DNA of 64,000 nt from Camellia lanceoleosa (taxonomy: Eukaryota; Streptophyta; Magnoliopsida; Ericales; Theaceae). The stretch's first letter is position 1, and every line of letters begins with the position of its first letter. The notes below the pieces were generated by a model that was not told where the DNA came from, made no database searches, and was given only the letters and a program-made list of their open reading frames with translations. The position numbers were made by a program, and so were the translations under genes. Positions 6,201-28,965 of this stretch are shown piece by piece. The stretch lies in the NCBI GenBank assembly GCA_025200525.1, contig CM045770.1:123295429-123359428 (forward strand). The letters run 5' to 3'.

Positions 6201-7440
6201 TTCATCACTTTTTCACTCACTCTCCCTCTCTAAAACATTCCAAACCCTAATTTCTTTACCTTCTCTCTTTAGTTCTTGCTTAAAACCTCAAATACACCCG
6301 CATCCATTGATTTCTCCACCATAACTCTTTGGATAAAAAGGTAAAGCTCATCAAAAGCTTCATTCTAATCGGAGAGCATCTTGTTTTCTGCTCCGTCAAA
6401 GTTTTACCCTTGCTCTCTTCCTCTTATACTATTGTGGTAGAGATTTCTTCAACCTTTGGTATGATTCTTAGCCTAATTATTTGCTATTTGAAAAGGTTTA
6501 GTGATTTGAGAATTTTGAATTAAACCTAGGGTTTGATTTTGAAATATAAAAGAGGGGTTTTTCAAATGAATTCTTGAGAAAGGTTGTGGAAGTATATAAA
6601 ATGTTGGGTTGTGTTGAAATGTTGGAATTTCCTTACTTAAATGTGATTTTGAAAGTAAAGGAAGTTTTGTTAAAAAAATCATTAATATTTGATTTATGAA
6701 AGAAAATGGAAAAGATGTTGGGTTTTGGAAAAATAAGAGGATTGTATCTGTTGATGATGAGAGGGGAATTGGATATGTAGTATCGCTCCCATTTTGAAAA
6801 TGATGAGATTAAATATGATGGATCATTTTACACACCAAAAATAAGCACTAAACTGTACCAAATTGCTTAGAACAATAGTAAGTCTAGGTATTGATCCACA
6901 ATGACATATGTGAAATTAAACTAATTTAATTGTTAAATTCCTAATTTAATTTTGATCAAAAAGATGATGATTCATAAATTAATAATAACTAAAATAAACT
7001 AAGATTTAACCTAGCAATTAAAAGTGAAATTGGGATTACTAATTTTTGGGAAAAACCTAGGGTAATGAATTCACCACTAGTTACATAAATAAAGTCTCAA
7101 TTTGAAAATCAATTATGTCCGGTGAACCAAATAATTCTTCACAACTACAAGTTCGAAGCATTGATCAAGAGAATTATCACGTTCAACCTATAGGCACGCT
7201 CAAGTAACATGAGTCGTTCATTCTAAACTATGGTAGCAAAATGACTCACCCCTTGTAGTATGGCTCGTCTCATACCTTAAATATGAAAGCACAAAAAACC
7301 ATTGCATGGAAAACATTCAACAATTATAGAGAAAAGAATACTTGAAGAAATAATGAAAAATATATTTAAAAACTTTTTGTATATCATATAACTTGTTCAA
7401 ACCATTACATAATCAAAAATTAAAAAGAATACCCCATTTA

Positions 7441-7950
7441 CACTACTAAAAATCGGACTTTTTGCAACGGTCTCAAATGTCGCAAAAGGTCCATATATCG
7501 TCGCAAAAGACTTTTGCGACGGAACAGTGACGGAAAATGGGGGTCGCGGAAAGGGGCGTGACAAAAAGTATTTGCGACGGTTACAAACTGTCGCTTTCTT
7601 GTAGCGACGGCTACTCAATAGTTTTTGCGACGGTTTCACGACACAAAAAGGAAAAACGGCATTTTAGTGACCATATTAATTGTCGCCAAAAAAACCTTTT
7701 TAGCGGCGGTATTTGCCGTCATAAAAAGTTTTATTAGCGGCGGTCTAAAACGCCGCCAAAAAATAGTATTAAGTTAATATCAGATAAGGCAGTTTAAACC
7801 GTCGCAAAAGATTTATTTGCCACAGTTGAAACCATCGCAAAAGATTGGAACTAAAATGTATATGCGACAGGTTAACCCGTCGCTAATAAAATATAAGGAA
7901 ATGAGAATTACATTAGCGACAGTTTATTATTGTCGCAATAAAATTATTTT
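7441..7950. repeat. Left subterminal repeat array of the CACTA element
   Basis: TTTTGCGACGG, TAGCGACGG, TAGCGGCGG and complements (CCGTCGCAAAA, CCGCCAAAA) recur at short intervals in both orientations. In the En/Spm family such subterminal arrays are bound by the TnpA-type protein; that role is inferred here. Part of the array has the altered core GCGGCGG (about 7700-7760). Confidence 0.75.
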
Positions 7951-8599
7951 TTATAAAATAATATTTTATTAAATATTCCCTATACAAATTATTAATATTT
8001 TTTAAAATACATCCACATCCACATCCAAATTCACATTCAAAAAATCATATACCAAGAATAATATATGTACCTTGTAACAATTGTCAACCAAATATTCTTT
8101 ACAAAAATATATAAAATAACCTCTAACAATACTAATAATTTTTTATATTCAAGAACTCAAATTTTTAGTATCGACAATAGAAATAAAAAAATAAAAAAAA
8201 ATAAAAACAGATATAGTGTAGCCTTTTTTTGATATCAATACTAAGCTCCCATATCGATATGTGAAGATATCACGTACTCAACAGGTTTGCATCTGCAAAA
8301 CGAAACAAAAAAGAAAAAAAAATCATCATTTACAACATAATTATTTTCAAGCTTACAGAAAATGTAAAACATTTGATATTTTTTTCAAAAATAAATAAAA
8401 ATAAATAAGATTGTAAACTCTAATATCGATATGCAAAGATATCATCACGTACTCAAAAGGGTTGCACCTGCAAAAAAACCAAAAAAAAAACCAAAAAAAA
8501 AATCATTTACAATATAATTAATTTTAAGCTTACAGAAAATGTAAAAAATTTGATATTTATTTCAATAAATAAATAAATAAGATTGTAACATATACATGA

Positions 8600-11500
8600 A
8601 TCGAGCGCCACACAATGTATCTTCTCCACATTAACCAACTTAGGAGGATTTTCACCGATGTGTGCAGGAATTTCCATCGATAGCAAGCAGGCCTTCACAA
8701 AGGACAAGCCCTGCAAAACACAAATGTTGAAAGGAACAACCAGGCGTCAACCAGGGGGAACAACAGACCCATCTGTAGGTGGTTCTCCTGAATTCGCCAA
8801 TGGCCCTGACAGGAAGATTGAAAAGGGTAAACAATACGAACACGCCTTTTTATCAAACTCATTGTCTATGTAGAAAAGTGTATCAAAAGCTGTAAACAAT
8901 CACTAATATAGATTTGTGGGATATCACAGAATTAGTCAATCACAAGAGAAAAAGGGGAACTTCAAATTAAGAAAATACTATGATAACAAATGCAAGAGAA
9001 ACACACAAAGAGGAACTTCAATTAAGTGTTCAAACATTTTTACCCAAATAGTGTCTTCAACCAGAAATTTGGACCAAATGACATCGTAAGCATCAAATTC
9101 ATCAAATCTCAGAATCGTTAAACAGGTCTTAAGATGAGAGTAAACGAGTACCACAAAGGGGTGGGGAACTTTGATTAAAGCACTCTCGCTTTACTCTGGG
9201 AGAAGGTTAAGAAAATAGGATCCGTCATTGAATATGTGGGCAACGTCAATAGGGCATGTTGGAATGTGGCTTCACCGACGGTAAATTTTCATCATAATTC
9301 AAACCAGCACCATAGATCAAAATGTTGCTACTCCTAGAAGAGAGCCATATATTTGATGTAATTGTTGCTTAAAACTAGGAACTGAAAAAACTTAGAAACA
9401 CCAAGATTACAAGAGCAAAGAAATTATATTAACAAAATACAATAAACAAAAGTTATTTTCCTATTACAAATTGTGGTTGGAAAATTACCGCATAGTGGAT
9501 CAACAACATTAGGTCGCTTCTATCCTTAGTGGCCTCCTGTGCTTCTAGATAAATTTTTGCTAGCGAGATCGTGTCAACCAAACCATGCCGCCACGCTTTT
9601 AAGGTTCTTGGTATTGTCACTTCCGCACTGTGTTTCAGAGGAAGGGCACTTTTAAAGTTTCATAAGGGACTGATAAAACAGACTCTTGGTTTTTTCCTGA
9701 TAGTGATATATGTGCCTGTTCAACTGGAACAGTACCAACATTAGCCAGACTAATCCACACATCACGAATCTCACCTTCATATAAAATGACAGCTCCATCA
9801 CCACCTATAATGTGTGACACTAGCAATGGCAGTGAGGGTACCACAGAAATATTTGGAACTGATACATTTTTCAACTTTGCAGACCCACAGCAGCGGAAAG
9901 GGTTAGAAAGAACAAGACCTTGTGCTGCTCCAAGGATTAAGTTATCAACATCCTTAAAAAGGTGTTCAGTAATTACACCAAAACAATGAACCATGCATCC
10001 AGGAATTGTCACTGGCCCCATTTTAGTTGGAATTCCTGACAACGTGATCACTTTTGAAGAATTAGTTGGGAGATTTACACTAATTGGAAAAGAATCGAAG
10101 TTTCCGGAATGCACTGACAGATAGATGCTATCAACCATTAAGTCAAACCCAGAAGGATTTGCCAATTCCACTAACACCTGGACTGGCTCTCCAACAACCC
10201 AAATCAGCTCATGCTTACTGCTATGATTTGGCTCTCCTTTGCTGAATGGTGTATAAATAAAAGGCCCTGAGGGACCAGATCCTGCCCACCAATCTTCTCT
10301 AGCTGAATTGCATTTTATGATGTCCATTTGTGAGGGATAGAGTGGAAAGGAATGCAACTTGGAAGCATTTAAAAAGTTGACAGCACAAATAGGTAAAAGT
10401 CTTTGAAAAGTAAATGTGAAAAAGTATAGGAGGGATCCAACAATGATTTTTTTTTTGTTGGGGGGGGGGGGACGTGTGATCAATGTCCTTTTTTTTTTTT
10501 TTTTTTTTTGACACAATCACCAAGGGTTCCATCCAACTAGGCTGCCCCAGTTTGTTCAATGTCCTTGGTTATATGTTTAGCCAATTGAAGACATTTAGCA
10601 TCTTATAATTTTATCTTGCCAAGGAATATGTAATGACAGGACCGTAATAAGCCTGTAAGAAAACTTGATTCTTGCTCAATACTAGAGAAGTATTAAACCT
10701 ACAAGACAAATACCTTATAAAAGGTGAGGCGAGATCGGCCCAATGAAGTTCTCAAGGAAGTCTATCAACGAAATTTGCAAGTTCACTGCAAGATTATTTT
10801 GCCCAGAGGAGTAATTAGAGGAGAATAAGATTGAAGCAGTATGTCGCCGCACTCCATGCAAAGAAGAGGATCTCCGCAGCATGCCAGACACCAGTATCTC
10901 TCTTAGAACAACCATCTGCAGGGTGCTCCAATGGGACTCAAAATGTGAGACTATGGAGTGATGATGCGTTTTCCCACCATCAACATGAGTGGATACAATT
11001 TCCTTAAATAAAGAAAGAACAGATACAAATTCAGAATGTGGAATAATTAACTGAAAACAGTATAGAACCTGCTGATCTATCACACCATGTCAGTTCTAAC
11101 CAGACCATCCACTGCAAAGCTTCTCTGTCAAATTTGGAGTTCTGACCAATATTGAACTTAATTCAATCTGTGAATGGAAACTAACAACTTCACAAGAGGT
11201 CATGCTGTGTACCATGAGAAAAAGGATTTTAATTTTTTGGTGGGGGTGGAAAGGAAACATTACAGTTTTCAATTATTAATTTTTATTTTTTTTTACCATG
11301 TGCACTATGAAATGTTAAAAATTCTTATTCTTACATTTGCAATAATACTTTTTTGTTGTCATTCAAGAAATCAAATGTATTAGCATACCATAATCTCCTA
11401 CCTAAAATCCATCAGGACCTTGTTCTAGAGAAAGTGGTATGGGATAACCATACATGAATATAATTTAGCATATGCACATTAGCATGGTACCTTATTCGAG

Positions 11501-12894
11501 TAAGTAGAAGCTGATGCAGCATTTTGTTTGTAAATAAAAGGACAATAAATGTTTATTTTTACTAGCTTTTCAAAGGCAAGCTCCCAAATGTGAAAAGTTC
11601 ATCCCAAATGCAAAAATTAATGGTAATAGTCGCATAATCATATATGCCAAACCATACTTTTAAAACCCACATTGGGAAGAGAACTCCAAGCAATAGATGC
11701 TCTACTTTGAACACGATATGCTTTTGTGGTAATTGCCAACTCTTGCAAGGCATTGATAGCGGCCAGTCTATTTTCTTGTTGCAAATACAGCTGAGCTACC
11801 TGCCTTGAAAAAAGGCAGCTTTTCGGTGATAGCCTAGAGTTCCAAAAAGACGAGCTACTTTAACATACAATATTAGTCGGTCACTGGCATCAATCAAAGA
11901 TTTTGCTCCATCAACAGCAGCTGTCAACAACTCCACTACTTCCTTGGCCAGCTCACGTCTATCAATAAACAAAATATTTTAAGTGAAAAACCAATTTTAA
12001 AAATCACAGTAATACAGAAATTCTTAGCTTATAACTACATTTCAACCTTCTACATTGTTCCCTAACCCAAGGAATAAAGACACATCTATGGGGATCCTAA
12101 CCCATAATTGAAATGAAGACTGCGTAATTGACTGGTTTAGTGATGTCTAACAATTATAGAATAATGGCAATAGGAATTAATGAAAAGTTGATAACATACT
12201 GCAGAGATGAAATGAAAATTTTACGGAATGTGATCTGGCAAGTGTAGTCTGTTATATGGTACCTGAAATTTACTGGTACCAAGGTCCAATTTAAATCCAA
12301 ACTTTCCATATTGCTAGTCATCTTTAACTCTCAAAATTTTTTATATGGCAATGTGATCATTTGAGCTTCACCGAATTTTAGCTGAAGTTTAAAATAATTA
12401 GTCCAAACTTCCAGCTAAAATTATTAAAATATTGAAATGACCTTGTTTACCCAAATGTGATCCAAAGTTTGACAAAAATCCAATCCAGAATTTGGGTCCA
12501 AAATTCACTTAATTTACGTTGAACTTAAAATATTAACTAAATTTACAAGCATTAAAATATGATGGCAGGTAGAAGTATTAAAATCTAATGTCTTTTTCTA
12601 TCTTTTTGCCAAAAAATTAACATCTGTACAATTCATACCTTGATAAAATGTAGAATAAAATGATGCAGGCAGCATTGTATAAATAATATAGCCTCATTAA
12701 TTTATACCTATATATTGATTGCACATTTCGATCAAGAGATTTTGGGATATCATCCCACTTCTACAGGCTAAATTCATTCAAGTACAATAGTATGTTGCAG
12801 TCATCACCATAGAAGCTAGGTTAAACAAGCCTACTTGCAGAGAAATCTTGCCAACTTCAAAGTAGCCTCGAGTTCAAAGCTTAGGGGAGATACT
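8600..12894 (-). pseudogene. TRS120: Captured fragment of TRS120 (TRAPPII subunit), five exons
   Basis: TRS120 (TRAPPC9 homologue) is a large TRAPPII tethering-complex subunit acting at the trans-Golgi/early endosome and in cytokinesis. Five consecutive exons are readable on the minus strand: about 12894-12835 (LSFELEATLKLARFLC), 11958 to about 11645 (RELAKEVVELLTAAVDGAK, VAQLYLQQENRLAAI), 11002-10714 (HWSTLQMVVLREILVS), about 10352-9490 (NSAREDWWAGSGPSGPFIY, VVGEPVQVLVELANPSGFD, FRCCGSAKLKN) and 8805 to about 8600 (CVLQGLSFVKACLLSMEI). AG acceptors and GT donors sit at most junctions. Damage: frameshifts and a stop in the 11002-10714 exon, a one-base loss near 9655 after YETLK, and a stop in the last exon before RLVVPF. 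The gene's 5' part and 3' end are absent. It is a non-functional capture inside the CACTA element. The gene identification is by recognition of conserved wording. Confidence 0.85.
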
Positions 12895-13758
12895 CTGCAT
12901 ACCAAATAATTACAAAGATAACCATCAAGAGGGTTACATATATTATGAAGTGAATAAATATGAAAAGACAATAAATAATAAGCATTAAATAAATCTCAAA
13001 AAATAACATTAAGCCACTGGAAGGTTTTGTTATCTGAATAATAGTATTCTTCAAACTTATATAGCTTAAATTACATAATTAACCAACATTTTTTTGGATT
13101 GACAACCAAGAAAAATTTATTAATAACCAGAGGACAATTAGAAAATAATACAAAAAATGTAGAAGGGCACACGCTACACATTTCCAAAGAGCCCGCACTT
13201 TATCATAGAGAACTTGTTTCCAAGTCGTATATATTCCATTCAGATGCCATAATTTAAAGATAGTAATTTCACATGAACTTGCAAGAAAGTAAAGCCAGAT
13301 TAATACTTCAGTTCACATCAAGAACATTCACATAAGTTTGTACATAAAAATATCAAGGCACAAGTAGACGATTTTCATGATAACAATTTTTCAAGTCCAC
13401 ATAATTATTCTACTTCTAAGCTGCTGCTTAATGGTCACGAGTCATTCCCTCCTATTTAGTGAAGCCAAAATTGAGAATGGAGCCAATGATGGCAGCTGAA
13501 GAGCAGTAGTGCGTATGAAAAAATGTAAACATGCAGCAATATTTTAGCGCATAATCAAAATTCTCTCAGATGTTTGATGTCAATGTAAATCCAGAGCGAG
13601 GATTATGGAGCGCAAGTATCATGATTGATTCAGTGTGTCAACAAGAGTAAAAAACAAGGACTTCTAAAATTGTCGTATTATGATTGATTCAGTTTTCAAC
13701 CAAAAACAGGAGAATAAAATATGAAAATAAAATAATTCCAAAGACCAAGACTAGAGTG

Positions 13759-15818
13759 TCAGTTTACAGTTACAGAACTTAAGCCTTCATAGTTAACAGG
13801 GGCTTTCTGAAGCTTTGGGTCTGTATATGTAACGTTCTCCAATTGTTTCAGCACAGCCTCTCCATAATCCTGGAAGGACCTGAAAGCACCAATGTATTAA
13901 TTAAGCCACTATTACCTGAAGGCATTTTCAGCCAACAATTACAAAATACAGTAGCATACCCTCCTTTAAGATCTGGATGACTCTGATCAATCGTTAGTCT
14001 AAATTCAACAGTAACAGCACGTTCCTCTAGACTGTCTACCAAATCATTCAAAACTTTGCTGCCGCCACCTACTCCTGAAGCTTTGGCAGATGCAAGTTTA
14101 TTCAAGAGCTTCACCTGCAAGTAGTGCCAAATAGAAGAGGGGAAGAAGTAAGAGGAAAAAGAAAATATTGCAAAAACAGAATGTCAACTTTGCACAATGG
14201 ATAAATTTATCGTGTTAGGGGAAAAAAAATCCTATGTTGCATAGTGAACTACAAGTGTAGAATGCTAAATAAATTTCATAACCACAGTTGCAATTCAAGC
14301 CTACCATGAGATATGCACCATCATCAAGCCAATGATTTTCCTTCAGAGCTCCATGGCCACTGGTTTCAATAGCCAAGTGAGACTCCTTACCAACCGAGTT
14401 CTGTAAACAATATTTCTTTTAGATATAAAATCAGGTGCAGAGTTACATACTAAACAAAATGTACAATGAAAGAAGCATATGTAGTTGATGCTATCATGAA
14501 TTGTATAATTTCCTTTCTGGTTTTCCTTTTATCCTCTTCCATCAGTGCAGACAAAAACTACCACTAACGTGCTAAAAGGGTCCCAGGTGAAAACTGGACA
14601 ACAAGGATCCATCTAACAAGAAAGCAGGCCCCTCAATTAAGTAGGAACCACTTTCATCTCTAGATATCATAACATGAGAGGTGTGGGCTTGCTGTTTAAG
14701 AGAGGATCGTTGAAGGCCTAGGGCTAATAGTACTTTTTGCATTTCTGTTGAAAAGCCAAAGATCTAAGAAATAACTCAATACATGGTTAAATAATGCACA
14801 TCCACACTTTCAACTCTGCGATTCAACTAAACCCCAGTGCAATACCATCTTTAAAGAATCAATCTTATGAGCTCATATCACAATCAGATGCTTTACTTTT
14901 AGTTCCTAGTTTTTTTATGATGTATTTTATTTCCTTACTGAAGACATTTTCTCCTCTGGTTGTACTCTCTTTTTTGGAAGATAAAAGATTTCAATCTATG
15001 AAGCAGAAAGTTCAGTTGGACACATCACTTGTTGGTTCTGAGAAAAGTTACAAGTCATGTACATAGGAATAAGGTTCTCATGATGCCTCTGGTAGTGGTT
15101 AAGTTCAAGACATTCTCAACCATAGTTTCTCTTAGACTTGTAAATATGGAATGCAAAGCTCCATGAAATTCATAAACTGTTTCATAATGAACATTAAATA
15201 TTTCCAAAGAGTAGCAAGTAGTAACAGTAATGAGTACCAGATGAATTGCTTCATCAATGACATTTTTGTAGCCTCTTTTGAACCTGTGTTGCTTTCCTCT
15301 TGTGAGAAATGATATTAAGTTATGAGCACATTAATCATAAGAAAGGAATCAAGCAATCTAATTACTCTTACCAAGTTTCTTTTCAATAAATGTTGTTAAT
15401 CCATTTGAAGTAACACTGTCTATGACAACTGTTGTTCTTGGATGCTAATAGAACAAAACACAAAGTGAATACAACTCACAACAAATACTTTTTTTTTCCC
15501 TCTCATTTGGGAAGATTCAACAGGACCCAAAGTTCAGGATGTAAACAACTACAGTTTTATACGGACAACTAACTAAGGAAACTTATTTCCTCAAGAACAA
15601 TGGCTGACATTAATGCAATCAGACGATTCTGATTGAGCTCACGGCCGCAGGAATCCACAGCAGCAGATCTGGGAGAAAGACATAGTCAGGAAAATACATG
15701 ACATGCATACTAGATTAACGCATGGATTGTAAAAATCGTTACCTGTCAACATCCGCATCAAAGATAATTCCCAAATCAACATTATTATCAAAAACTGACT
15801 GGGTGATAGCTTCCATTG
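13759..15818 (-). pseudogene. Captured fragment of a phosphoglucomutase/phosphomannomutase-like gene, seven exons
   Basis: The alpha-D-phosphohexomutase family interconverts sugar 1- and 6-phosphates; the plant subgroup recognised here is the chloroplast-predicted PGM/PMM-like one. Exons on the minus strand: 15818-15743 (AMEAITQSVFDNN...DADVDR), about 15668-15590 (RELNQNRLIALMSAIVLEE), about 15446-15369 (TVVIDSVTSNGLTTFIEKK), about 15302-15242 (RFKRGYKNVIDEAIHL), about 14399-14305 (IETSGHGALKENHWLDDGAY), about 14110-13961 (VKLLNKLASAKASGVGGGSK) and about 13880-13780 (DYGEAVLKQLENV, KAPVNYEG). DADVDR matches the metal-binding loop and SGH...ALKENHW the sugar-binding loop region. Splice phases agree across all seven exons with no internal stop, but the second exon's donor reads ATAAGT where GTAAGT is expected. 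The N-terminal exons (with the catalytic serine) and the last exon are missing; the reading frame runs into a stop at 13759. Confidence 0.85.
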
Positions 15819-15839
15819 CTAATTTACTTCTTGAGGGGG

Positions 15840-16660
15840 AAAAAAAAAAAAACCAGAAACAAAAATGAAAAAACAAGAACGAACAAAAAAAAAGGGAAAA
15901 ATTCAAAAGAAAGCAATCAAAAAATGAAATAATAATTGAAAAAAAACTAGTAACAAAAATGAACAAAAGCAAAACATTTTTCCTTCAAAAGTAGAATAAG
16001 AAAGAACCAAAAATGGGGGGGAAATCAAATGAAAGAACAATAAAAAAATCAAATAATAAACGAAAAAAAACTAGCAAAAATGAACAAAACCAAAACCATG
16101 TTTCCTTCAAAAGTAGAACAAGAAAGAAAAATTAAAAATGAGGAACAAAAACGAAACCAATTTCACAAGATTCAAAGATTTCAACTTTTACCAACTCACA
16201 TTGAAGTAAAAAAAAAAAAAACCCAATTCCACAACATAAAAAACTAATTTTGTCGGTTCTGAATCAAAACCCTACCTTTTCAATTGAAATCCCCAATGAT
16301 TTTTTTTTCCCTCTGAGATCCCCGAATTAAAACCCTAGTTTGAATCTCCAAACCTGATTTAAGGGAGGAAGTGTTATTCTTCGCTGAGTCTCTCGTCCCT
16401 TCCTTTCTCTTCGTCTTCTATGTAGCGGTTGATGCGGAAAATCAACTGATTTATCTCTATTTCAAGTCGATAATGTCAAAAATCGACTGATCTTACTCGG
16501 TTGAAGCTCAAAGCTTAAACTTCAATGGTGGTTAAAGAGAGATAGAGTGACGACTGGGTGAGAGGAAGGGAGGGAGGGAGAGAATAGTGAGATTATGGTA
16601 GAATATTGAAGTTTTTTTTTTTTTTTTTTCAACAGATTACAAGAGAGTTTGGGAAAACAG
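15840..16660. other. AT-rich CACTA interior with no recognised coding exon
   Basis: The first 350 bp (about 15840-16190) is built of repeated A-rich phrases such as ACAAAAATGAA, AAGAACAA and GAAAGAAC, resembling a degenerate repeat. From 16250 to 16560 the composition becomes ordinary and could be captured 5' leader or intron of the neighbouring gene fragment. Nothing there can be named. Confidence 0.4.
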
Positions 16661-16719
16661 TGATGCTAGGGAGCTCGAAAACGAGCTCCCCCTAATCCCC
16701 CGAATTCCATTTTTTTTTT

Positions 16720-16990
16720 TTCTTCAACAGGAAGAAGACGGAGGGGGAGGGGGACTGGAGGGAGCCTAGAAAATGGGCTGGAGGCGGAGGGCTGGAGGTC
16801 GTCGGCGATGGAAGAGGCGAAGAGGCATGGCGCGGCGACGGAGGGCAAGGCCGATCGGCGACGGAGGGCTGGACGATGGCGATCGGCGACGGATCTGCGA
16901 CGATCGGCGGCTCTCTCTCCCTCCCTCCCTCTGCTTCTCTCTCTCTCTCTCTCTTCTCTCTTCCCCTTTGCTTCTCCCTCTCCTCTCTGC
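16720..16990. repeat. GC-rich block with repeated GATCGGCGACGGA
   Basis: A sharp GC island in otherwise AT-rich DNA, built from repeats of GGAGGGCTGGA and GATCGGCGACGG and followed by CT-rich sequence. It supports open frames on both strands up to about 135 codons. These are low-complexity Arg/Ser/Pro-rich reads and are not supported as genes. Its GGCGACGG core resembles the element's subterminal GCGACGG repeats. Confidence 0.6.
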
Positions 16991-17159
16991 TTCTCTCGCC
17001 GAAAATGGAAGAAAAAAGAAAAAAAAAAAATCCCCAAAATGACGGGGTTTTGGGGATTAGGGGGATTCGGGAGAGCCAAATTCGAGCTCCCAATCTTTAT
17101 TCTTGGGAAAATGGGGAAAGAGGGAAAGTGAGAGGGAGGTTTGGCGCGAATTTAAGAAT

Positions 17160-17455
17160 TACCATTTGCGATGATGTTAAGGCCCGTCACGAATGAATGA
17201 GCTAAAAATAAACTTTTGCGACGGATTGTCAAAAGAGCGTCGCAAAAAAAAAAAAAAAATAAGGCTAGAAAAATTTTGCAACATTTAATGTACCGTCTCA
17301 TATAACCTTACTTTTTTGCCACGAGCTTAGTTTTTCCGTCGCAAAAAAAATAATTTTGCGACGTCATTAACTGCCGTCGCAAAAGCTTGCTTGTTGCGAC
17401 GGCACTTAAACCGTCGCAAATTATTCCGTGTCAAATGCCCTTTTTTCTAGTAGTG
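17160..17455. repeat. Right subterminal repeat array of the CACTA element
   Basis: Mirror of the left array: TTTTGCGACGG, TTGCGACGTC, CCGTCGCAAAA and GCCGTCGCAAAAG recur up to the terminal CTAGTAGTG at 17455. At least six copies in both orientations lie within 300 bp. Confidence 0.75.
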
Positions 17456-17931
17456 TTACTTGGCTAGAGTTTTATCAAAATCCTAGGAATAGAAGAACTA
17501 GCAACTCATGGAGGAGTGGGGAGAGATAGAGGAAGAGGAAACCACCATGAGAGATATTCTTGAAGCTTGAAAGCCTTCTCTTCAAACCCTAGCCCCTCCT
17601 ATCCTTTGGAAAATTTCAAAACCCTTGAGTAACCTTTTCTTATTCTTTTTATTCTCAGCAGAACGAGCTCAAAATTCGGGCACATGTTCAGGTAGGCCGC
17701 CGAGCCCACAATTTCCACTTGAGCGGTGGTGGGCGCATGTGCGGTGGTGGCAAGTTGAAAATTTTCAAGATTGCTCAGAGAATCTGCTTTTGTGCCACTT
17801 TACCGAATTTGCATGTTGCCTACCAAATCAGAAAAGTGCACAAAACACATTATCTTTGCCAAATAAACAAAATTCAAAGAGTATAAATATAACTTAAGTG
17901 GCCTCAATATGGTACCTTTCGACCCACATCA

Positions 17932-27821: not shown

Positions 27822-27840
27822 CCGACAACGGTACCAAAAT
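27822..27840 (-). promoter_or_regulatory. Primer-binding site, Asp-tRNA type, mutated
   Basis: On the minus strand, two or three bases after the 5' LTR end (CCCATCA), the sequence reads TTTGGTACCGTTGTCGGA. The Asp-tRNA complement used by Athila-type elements is TGGCGCCGTTGCCGG; the match is good apart from apparent C-to-T and G-to-A type changes. Confidence 0.65.
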
Positions 27841-27841
27841 T

Positions 27842-28965
27842 TGATGGGTTATTTTACACACCAAAAATAAGCGCTAAACTGTACCAAATTCCTTAGAACA
27901 ATGGTAAGTCCAGGTGTCGTTCCACAGGGACAAATGTGAAATTAAATTAATTTAATTGTTAAATTCCTAATTTAATTTTGATAAAAAAAGATGATGATTC
28001 AGAAACTAATAATAACTAAAATAAACTAAGAATTTAACCTAGCAATTAAAAATGAAATTGAGTTTACTAATTTTTGGAAAAAAAAACCCAAGGTAATGAA
28101 GTCACCACTAGTTACATAAATAAGGTCTCAATTTGAAAATCGATTATGTCCTGTTCGAACCAAATAATACTCATAACTACAAGTTCGAAGCATTGATCAA
28201 GAGAATTATCATGTTCAACGTATAGGCAGGAATCATCTCAAGTAGCACGAGTCGTTCACTCTAAACTAGGGTAGCAAAACAACTCGTCCCTTGTAATATA
28301 GCTCATCCCATACCTTAAATATGAAAACAAAGAAAACCATTGCATGGAAAGCATTCAATAATCATAGAAACAAGAATACTTGAAGAAATAATGAAAAATA
28401 TATTTAAAAACTTTTTGAATAACATACAACTTGTTCAAACCATTACATAATCAAAAATCAAAAAGAAAACCCTACTTACTCGGCTAAGGTTTCATCAAAA
28501 CCCTAGGAATAGAAGAACTAGCCACTCATGGAGGAGTGGAAAGAGGTAGAGGAAGAAGAAACCACCATGAGAGATATTCTTGAAGCTTGAAACCCTTCTG
28601 TTCAAACCCCAGCCCCTTCTATCCTTTGGAAAATTTCAGAACCCTAGAACAACCTATTTTTCTTCTTTTTATTCTCAGCAGAACGAGCTCAAAATTTTGG
28701 GCACGTGTCCCTAGGTAGGCCGCTCGAGCGCCCACAATTTTTGCTCGAGTGGTGGTGGGCCACAGTGCGGTGAGGTGGCAGGTCGAGAAATTTTTAGTAC
28801 TTGCTAGGAGAATCTGCTTTTGTGCCACTTTTCACCTAAATTTGCATGTTTCCTGCCAAATCTGTACAAGTGGACAAAATACATCATCTTTGCCAAATAA
28901 ACAAAATTCAAAGACTATAAATGTAACTTAAGCGGCCTCAATGTGGTATCTTTCGGCCTACATCA
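27842..28965 (-). repeat. 5' LTR of the Athila-like element
   Basis: A complete LTR of about 1.12 kb. The minus-strand start is TGATGTAGGCCG and the end CCCATCA. It contains GGCCGCTCGAGCG and GCTCGAGTGG palindromes (28718-28755). It is flanked on the outside by the TSD copy at 28965-28969. Confidence 0.88.

Follow-up and report, generated by a model that had tools for sequence, protein, structure and literature searches.

Segments of two unrelated host genes in a Camellia CACTA element: a Pack-CACTA probably built by serial capture

CACTA transposons with captured coding DNA between their termini, the Pack-CACTA elements, have been described from Arabidopsis, rice and maize, and the sections of that work cited here report Pack-TYPE elements with material from several loci, the greatest number in maize Pack-CACTAs, and the re-mobilisation of neighbouring insertions (PMC8903248). 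It is understood only in part how DNA transposons bring together pieces of unlinked genes: section 7 of a 2026 review deals with the formation of hybrid Pack-CACTAs and holds that a further mechanism for unlinked genes may await discovery (PMC13317346). In soybean, Tgm-Express1 is described in the cited part of its report as a CACTA element with five host gene fragments that are spliced in many combinations (PMC1947982), and for animals the portion of the literature used here describes Pack-TIRs, in which captured sequence lies between terminal inverted repeats (TIRs) and which serve as a mechanistic parallel only (PMC8277862). No relevant literature on CACTA elements in Camellia was found. 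Here we describe a CACTA element of 10,015 bp that spans positions 7441 to 17455 of a 64,000-nucleotide stretch of the Camellia lanceoleosa genome (the window; C13:123295429-123359428 of assembly G000, which has 2,999,249,670 bases in 790 contigs). The gene content of the region is that of a plant, and the element carries segments of two unrelated host genes, TRS120 and a phosphohexomutase-like gene (the mutase). We consider it a probable case of serial capture, in which a presumably non-autonomous Pack-CACTA acquired the mutase and then TRS120.

The Camellia element has in common with the Pack-CACTAs of Arabidopsis, rice and maize its CACTA termini, its captured coding DNA and the presence of several loci within one element; it differs from them, as they appear in the sections cited, in holding two multi-exon segments (4.6 and 2.6 kb) with introns, in existing as six copies, and in the survival of an element with only one of the two cargoes (PMC8903248). 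Tgm-Express1 likewise contains unrelated host fragments with exons and introns retained, but its published description, in the part used here, is of a 5.7-kb element that lies within a gene and is transcribed, whereas the present element sits in a long terminal repeat (LTR) retrotransposon and is known from DNA alone (PMC1947982). CACTA-like elements of Chenopodium also carry captured host fragments, which in the passages cited are found in the 5′ region, ahead of the coding sequence that belongs to the element itself, whereas here the cargo fills the interior (PMC8978399). The sequence-only reading from which this work started had proposed a CACTA with two unrelated captured genes and had seen in it the best candidate in the window for a new element family. 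The former holds; a new kind of element is unsupported because multi-locus Pack-CACTAs have been published, at least in the portions of the two reports cited (PMC8903248, PMC1947982). The element is of the known Pack-CACTA kind, with a history that is unusually readable: a mutase-only element, a composite in six copies, candidate donors and base-by-base junctions together make the order of events legible from DNA, so that competing models of capture become testable in related accessions. In other respects it is what a transposon family that captures genes would ordinarily produce.

The limits of the element can be read from the window itself. It begins with CACTACTAAAAA at 7441 and ends with TTTTTTCTAGTAGTG at 17455, the CACTA TIRs being CACTACTA and TAGTAGTG, and the flanks left of 7441 and right of 17458, once joined, match the partner LTR without a break over 1,131 columns, with 87.5% identity (Table 1). 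Because that LTR retains the empty site in the same window, the limits and the TTA duplication are real. The motif GCGACGG, searched on both strands, occurs 14 times in the 64 kb and always within the element, with six occurrences in the first 443 bp, five in the last 238 bp and three in a nested insertion (16835-16892), and both ends therefore have the subterminal repeats of the CACTA (En/Spm) superfamily. All of these traits (termini, matching GCGACGG arrays, TTA duplication, an LTR made continuous by removal of the element) had been noticed from the letters alone and are confirmed. The interior, mapped from genome matches to 8600-17100 (best 40 of 1,909 candidates scored) and from pairwise comparisons, is accounted for by cargo, backbone and the nested repeat; the longest open stretch within it belongs to TRS120.

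The composite is found at six loci that have both CACTA ends, namely the window copy and those designated C5, C8a, C8b, C60 and C9. All share one gene order, with 1.4-1.7 kb between the TRS120 and mutase query pieces, and matches span both internal junctions in every copy. The 3-bp target duplications are exact in five of the six (TTA, TAT, TAA, TAT and ATC) and read ACA/ATA, with one mismatch, at C9; the same five begin with CACTACTA, while C9 begins with TACTACTA, the first TIR base being changed. One composite cargo at six loci indicates mobilisation after capture, a mark of Pack-CACTAs. A search with the first 260 bp of the element gave matches of 88-100% identity in the best 40 of 1,169 first-look candidates, self included. 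At least 39 other elements have the same 5′ end, and five of these have both ends and carry the two genes together; the relatives that the sequence-only reading called for do exist. The possibility that TRS120 and the mutase are natural neighbours was dropped, in agreement with that reading, since the cargo searches of this genome yielded no locus outside CACTA ends that holds the two together.

The captured TRS120 segment measures 4,584 bp (about 4.6 kb), retains its introns and lies on the same strand as the mutase. One exon matches PF08626 at E = 2.3e-20, and a second, at 1.6e-4, is below the cut-off of that family. Five exons had been counted beforehand; the TRS120 identity stands, and the count was too low, as there are further exons at about 8622-8870 and 12838-12900. 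With window 9500-12000 as query (22 of 22 first-look candidates scored), nine loci matched over most of its length, comprising the six composites, C14a, C14b and C3:14.1 Mb, and short matches were obtained at other places. C14a and C14b remain alike past both capture limits and C3:14.1 Mb past the right one, and CACTA ends were not found at these three loci in the stretches read. Matches to the N-terminal part of TRS120 are confined to the neighbourhood of C14b (12 of 12 candidates scored). C14b (C14:142.92 Mb) appears to be the best donor, with cautions that are taken up below.

The mutase segment, of about 2.6 kb and also with its introns, is weakly recognised from single exons (PF02879 at 0.017, PF02880 at 0.21). 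Its identity as a mutase-like piece with seven exons, as originally read, is backed by the seven translations when joined, which match PF02880 at 1.2e-10 and the phosphomannomutase/phosphoglucomutase (PMM/PGM) structures at 9.4e-8; PF02879, at 7.9e-4, is below its cut-off. With coding DNA of both host genes between CACTA ends, the element is a Pack-CACTA. The mutase query (window 13700-15840, 11 of 11 first-look candidates scored) gave eight loci: the six composites, C3:169.2 Mb and C7. The C3 locus (C3:169196307-169212491) is a 16.2-kb CACTA element with the mutase and without TRS120, in which the CACTA 5′ end is followed by the mutase (169197509-169203234), by 8 kb of other sequence where Pfam detected no mutase domain in the minus-strand frames, by the backbone stretch termed block C (at 169211299) and by the CACTA 3′ end. 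Its flanks, CGT and TGT, are taken as one target duplication with one base changed. The C3 mutase is colinear with C7 except for unrelated insertions of about 2 kb, one in each, and it overshoots the mutase of the composite by 445 bp leftward and 259 bp rightward. Since extra mutase is retained on both sides, the C3 element cannot be a composite from which a part was deleted. C7:60183583-60189013 matches the C3 mutase and is without CACTA 5′ or 3′ sequence; C7 (60.18-60.19 Mb) appears to be the best mutase donor, unlinked to the TRS120 donor on C14.

The order of the two captures is indicated by divergence, computed away from CG and CHG sites, with the mutase measured in two of the six composites and TRS120 in all of them. 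From C7, the mutase differs at 51/1380 positions in the window copy (0.0370) and 56/1320 in C5 (0.0424); from the C3 element it differs at 40/1457 (0.0275) and 45/1398 (0.0322), respectively. The TRS120 segments differ from C14b at 11/1327 to 23/1297 positions (0.0083-0.0177). The intervals do not overlap, the highest upper limit for TRS120 and C14b (0.0254) lying below the lowest lower limit for the mutase and C7 (0.0283), and given similar rates in the donors this would make the mutase most likely the first capture and TRS120 the second. At the 3′ end, the composites are 0.096-0.122 from the C3 element, and the window and C5 copies are at least 0.126 from 13 other family copies; on these distances the 3′ end of the composite falls with that of the C3 element.

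These observations suggest a sequence of events in which a CACTA of this family took up about 3.4 kb of the mutase gene now represented at C7:60.18-60.19 Mb, and a relative of this mutase-only stage would persist at C3:169196307-169212491. In a sister lineage, 4,584 bp of TRS120 (C14:142.92 Mb) would have become placed with the 5′ backbone, which is cut at 8622, on one side and the mutase, cut back at 13203, on the other; the far side of the mutase would have been joined to block C at 15816-15820. The composite would then have moved as a whole, with transposase presumably provided in trans, and each of the six resulting copies has a target duplication of its own. The junctions bear on how the pieces were joined. 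TRS120 and the mutase overlap by TCA, the mutase and block C by TTGCT (15816-15820), and at the CACTA-TRS120 junction the backbone GTATCTTC and the gene ATTCTCCAC have at least TTC in common; these 3-5 bp overlaps at three junctions suggest a microhomology-type joining. Both outer cargo junctions (CACTA-TRS120 and mutase-block C) fall within coding exons, and at the TRS120-mutase junction the composite reads CATAGAG, as does the C3 element, where C7 reads CAAAGAG. C14a, C14b and C7 continue uninterrupted across the breakpoints of the composite. The short overlaps and donors still in place would agree equally with template switching and with hybrid excision followed by end joining, the donor being repaired from a homologue.

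Several observations weigh against this history. Similar rates in the two donors are an assumption. At the 5′ end the C5 composite is 0.052 from the C3 element and 0.037-0.067 from the ten other copies printed, and a clear two-parent origin from the 5′ and 3′ ends was dropped for that reason: away from CG and CHG the 5′ distances do not discriminate. The TRS120 segments of the composites are 0.014-0.036 from each other, which is above their distance to C14b. At window positions 10132, 10164, 10411 and 10634, C14a and C3:14.1 Mb share the state of the window copy, and C14b goes with the other five composites; one of these four sites abolishes an in-frame TAG in the window copy; they could reflect conversion between copies or an older polymorphism. 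Among the 25 commonest patterns at 103 two-state sites, none sets all six composites apart from all three donor-like loci. It is therefore the junctions common to the composites, and not the substitutions, that speak for a single TRS120 capture; the substitution pattern may have been blurred by conversion between copies. The proposed donors have blemishes of their own. C14b has an in-frame TAG, common to five composites, and a 133-bp deletion not seen at the other loci. Beside C7, Pfam detected no mutase domain in sense frames over the adjoining 5.1 and 3.0 kb, and a reverse transcriptase of the long interspersed nuclear element (LINE) type is present there, so that C7 may not be an intact gene.

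The absence of a clean substitution mark for a separate TRS120 uptake would also be expected if a locus that already joined TRS120 to the mutase had been captured once, with TRS120 subsequently lost from the C3 element, and the common strand of the two pieces and the TRS120-mutase junction spanned in all six composites agree with such a history. We regard it as unlikely, since the searches of this genome gave no joined locus outside CACTA ends, the place taken by TRS120 in the composite is filled in the C3 element by 445 bp of mutase-locus sequence, and the two cargoes are unequally diverged from their best donors. Of the two origins put forward in the sequence-only reading, two separate captures are thus favoured over one capture of a rearranged locus, given that a CACTA on C3 has the mutase only, that the best donors lie on C14 and C7, and that divergence from them differs. 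An assembly artefact might be suspected from the dense, scrambled differences at CAG/CTG, which suggest an imperfect consensus in repeats, but the recurrence of one structure in six copies that differ in their flanks and have 3-bp duplications, exact in five, together with an empty site in the window, makes this highly improbable.

Serial capture could itself have proceeded in two ways. In one, two CACTA copies inserted on either side of a TRS120 copy, one of them being the mutase carrier, and a 3′-truncated and a 5′-truncated element were mobilised together as one; such tandem-hybrid excision has been reported as a model for Arabidopsis Pack-CACTA and is treated in section 7 of the review cited above (PMC13317346). 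It predicts truncation on either side of the captured piece, which matches the cuts at 8622 and 13203, and the grouping of the composite 3′ end with C3 and the four family members L012, L016, L021 and L023, with similar 5′ but unrelated 3′ ends, speak for it. On the other side, C14a and C14b have no CACTA ends within the 300-750 bp that were read next to their TRS120 breakpoints, TRS120 continues across both breakpoints in these loci and across the right one at C3:14.1 Mb, and the 5′ distances fail to separate two sources. With TRS120 continuous through the breakpoints, the donor site would have to have been repaired or to lie on another chromosome, and we give tandem-hybrid excision a little under an even chance. 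The other way is by copying: during replication or gap repair of the mutase-carrying CACTA, synthesis would have switched to TRS120 and back, and the donors would have been left in place. The unbroken C14a, C14b and C7 and the short junction overlaps are in line with this, and gap filling with replication fork switching has been proposed for animal Pack-TIRs in the part of that work used here (PMC8277862). However, a patchwork of several short sources is not seen at the junctions, and overlaps of 3-5 bp would equally fit end joining or chance; copying is a real contender, if a somewhat less probable one. A broader proposal, that unlinked genes are captured serially by template switching, with the donors left where they were and a few matching bases at every junction, and that the element multiplied in each round becomes the vehicle for the next gene, we advance as tentative. 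If it is true, the C3 element and the six composites represent successive stages of one process, and the case bears on the gap for unlinked-fragment capture indicated in section 7 of the review (PMC13317346).

With regard to function, the TRS120 cargo of the six composites was compared with C14b over window 9500-12000. Away from CWG and CG the differences amount to 2.42% in exons and 1.99% in introns, so that the TRS120 exons are without the sign of constraint that a new coding gene under selection would carry, and the cargo looks neutral and is presumably without function. At the last captured mutase exon, the splice donor, which a fused transcript would need, reads TT in the window copy and GT in C5, C3 and C7; the mutase splice sites inspected are mostly retained, one acceptor having been moved by a base change, and a fused mutase-TRS120 transcript from other copies is possible on these sites.

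In the C5 copy, exons differ from the majority up to 9.5 times as much as introns do. Exons evolving faster than introns were nevertheless rejected as an explanation, as the excess is confined to within 3 bp of CAG/CTG, where the composites differ by 16.67% in exons and 7.32% in introns. At the non-element loci C14a and C3:14.1 Mb, differences are 4.82% and 3.93% near CAG/CTG and 2.49% and 2.60% elsewhere. In three other pairs of family copies they are 11.09, 13.88 and 15.77% near the motif against 1.51, 3.83 and 1.83% elsewhere when the motif is taken in either copy; with the motif read from a single copy, the neighbourhood of CG has equal or higher values in two of the three pairs. The LTR pair of the window has more CG than CAG/CTG differences, over few columns. 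The short scrambled patches are probably methylation-linked consensus errors in repeats, although real clustered mutation is possibly the cause; our search found no literature on methylation-linked consensus error of this kind. Since the differences at CAG/CTG suggest consensus error, frameshifts in the exons of the element need caution.

Table 1. Features of the element and its insertion site, in window positions.
Feature	Positions	Strand	Remark
Target-site duplication TTA, left	7438..7440	.	Partner LTR is the empty site
CACTA 5′ terminal region	7441..8621	+	TIR; subterminal GCGACGG/TCGCAAAA repeats; 177-bp repeat x1.9 at 8251-8577
TRS120 (TRAPPC9) gene segment	8622..13205	-	Several exons and introns; left junction within a coding exon, breaking off after KLVNVE
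Phosphohexomutase (PGM/PMM-like) gene segment	13203..15820	-	Seven exons; right junction within a coding exon
Block C, CACTA 3′-side backbone	15816..16657	+	Adjoining CACTA 3′ end also in the C3 mutase-only element
9-bp duplication TTGGGAAAA, left of nested insertion	16649..16657	.	
Nested repeat insertion, 445 bp	16658..17102	.	Flanked by 9-bp TTGGGAAAA
CACTA 3′ terminal region	17103..17455	+	Subterminal repeats and TIR; first 9 bases are the right-hand TTGGGAAAA
Target-site duplication TTA, right	17456..17458	.	Partner LTR is the empty site
Partner LTR with uninterrupted (empty) site, outside the element	27837..28965	+	Match to the joined flanks

The nested insertion (16658-17102) is present only in the window copy, the other five composites joining 16657 directly to 17103, and has at least eight relatives of 84-89% identity on several contigs. 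Its 9-bp TTGGGAAAA duplication suggests what we presume to be an insertion of the Mutator type. Block C has at least four more matches among those listed, two on C1 and two on C6. The C5 composite has 896 bp between the equivalents of window positions 8915 and 8921 that are missing from the window copy; with GTGGG at its start and again after it, this stretch is probably an insertion with a 5-bp duplication. Part of the TRS120 segment (window 12279-13205) is matched, at 90-96% identity, by an array-like cluster of at least seven places at C6:142.45-142.59 Mb and by at least three places on C641, one of the C6 matches starting only at 12526.

For the wider family, 20 of the 39 other loci were fetched, chosen by 5′ similarity. 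The 5′ region is common to all 20, in many to about window position 8630 and in several in part, and the double cargo is present in two, C5 and C8:91959809, in the latter of which extra sequence shifts most of the cargo past the fetched stretch. The 3-bp duplication matches in ten of the 13 sampled loci with both ends; at the remaining three of the 13 an internal motif was mistaken for an end (L010 and L017) or the left flank is lacking (L027). In L012, L016, L021 and L023 the 5′ ends are 6-10% from the composite and the 3′ ends nearly unrelated (0.35-0.42), which suggests end swapping within the family; the variety of 3′ ends is partly a sampling effect, because loci were selected by their 5′ end. 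The Pfam comparison gave no match in the interior of L028. L010 and L017 have a common interior (95-96%), and L010 matches PF24663 (DUF7651) at 3.5e-21 on the minus strand; the two form a sister subfamily within this CACTA family, and L010 likely carries a further host gene fragment. The 177-bp repeat of the 5′ backbone is present in about two copies in the window element, and in L012, L016 and L019 further stretches, at about 1.7-3.7 kb, resemble one another and are spaced by close to 175 bp.

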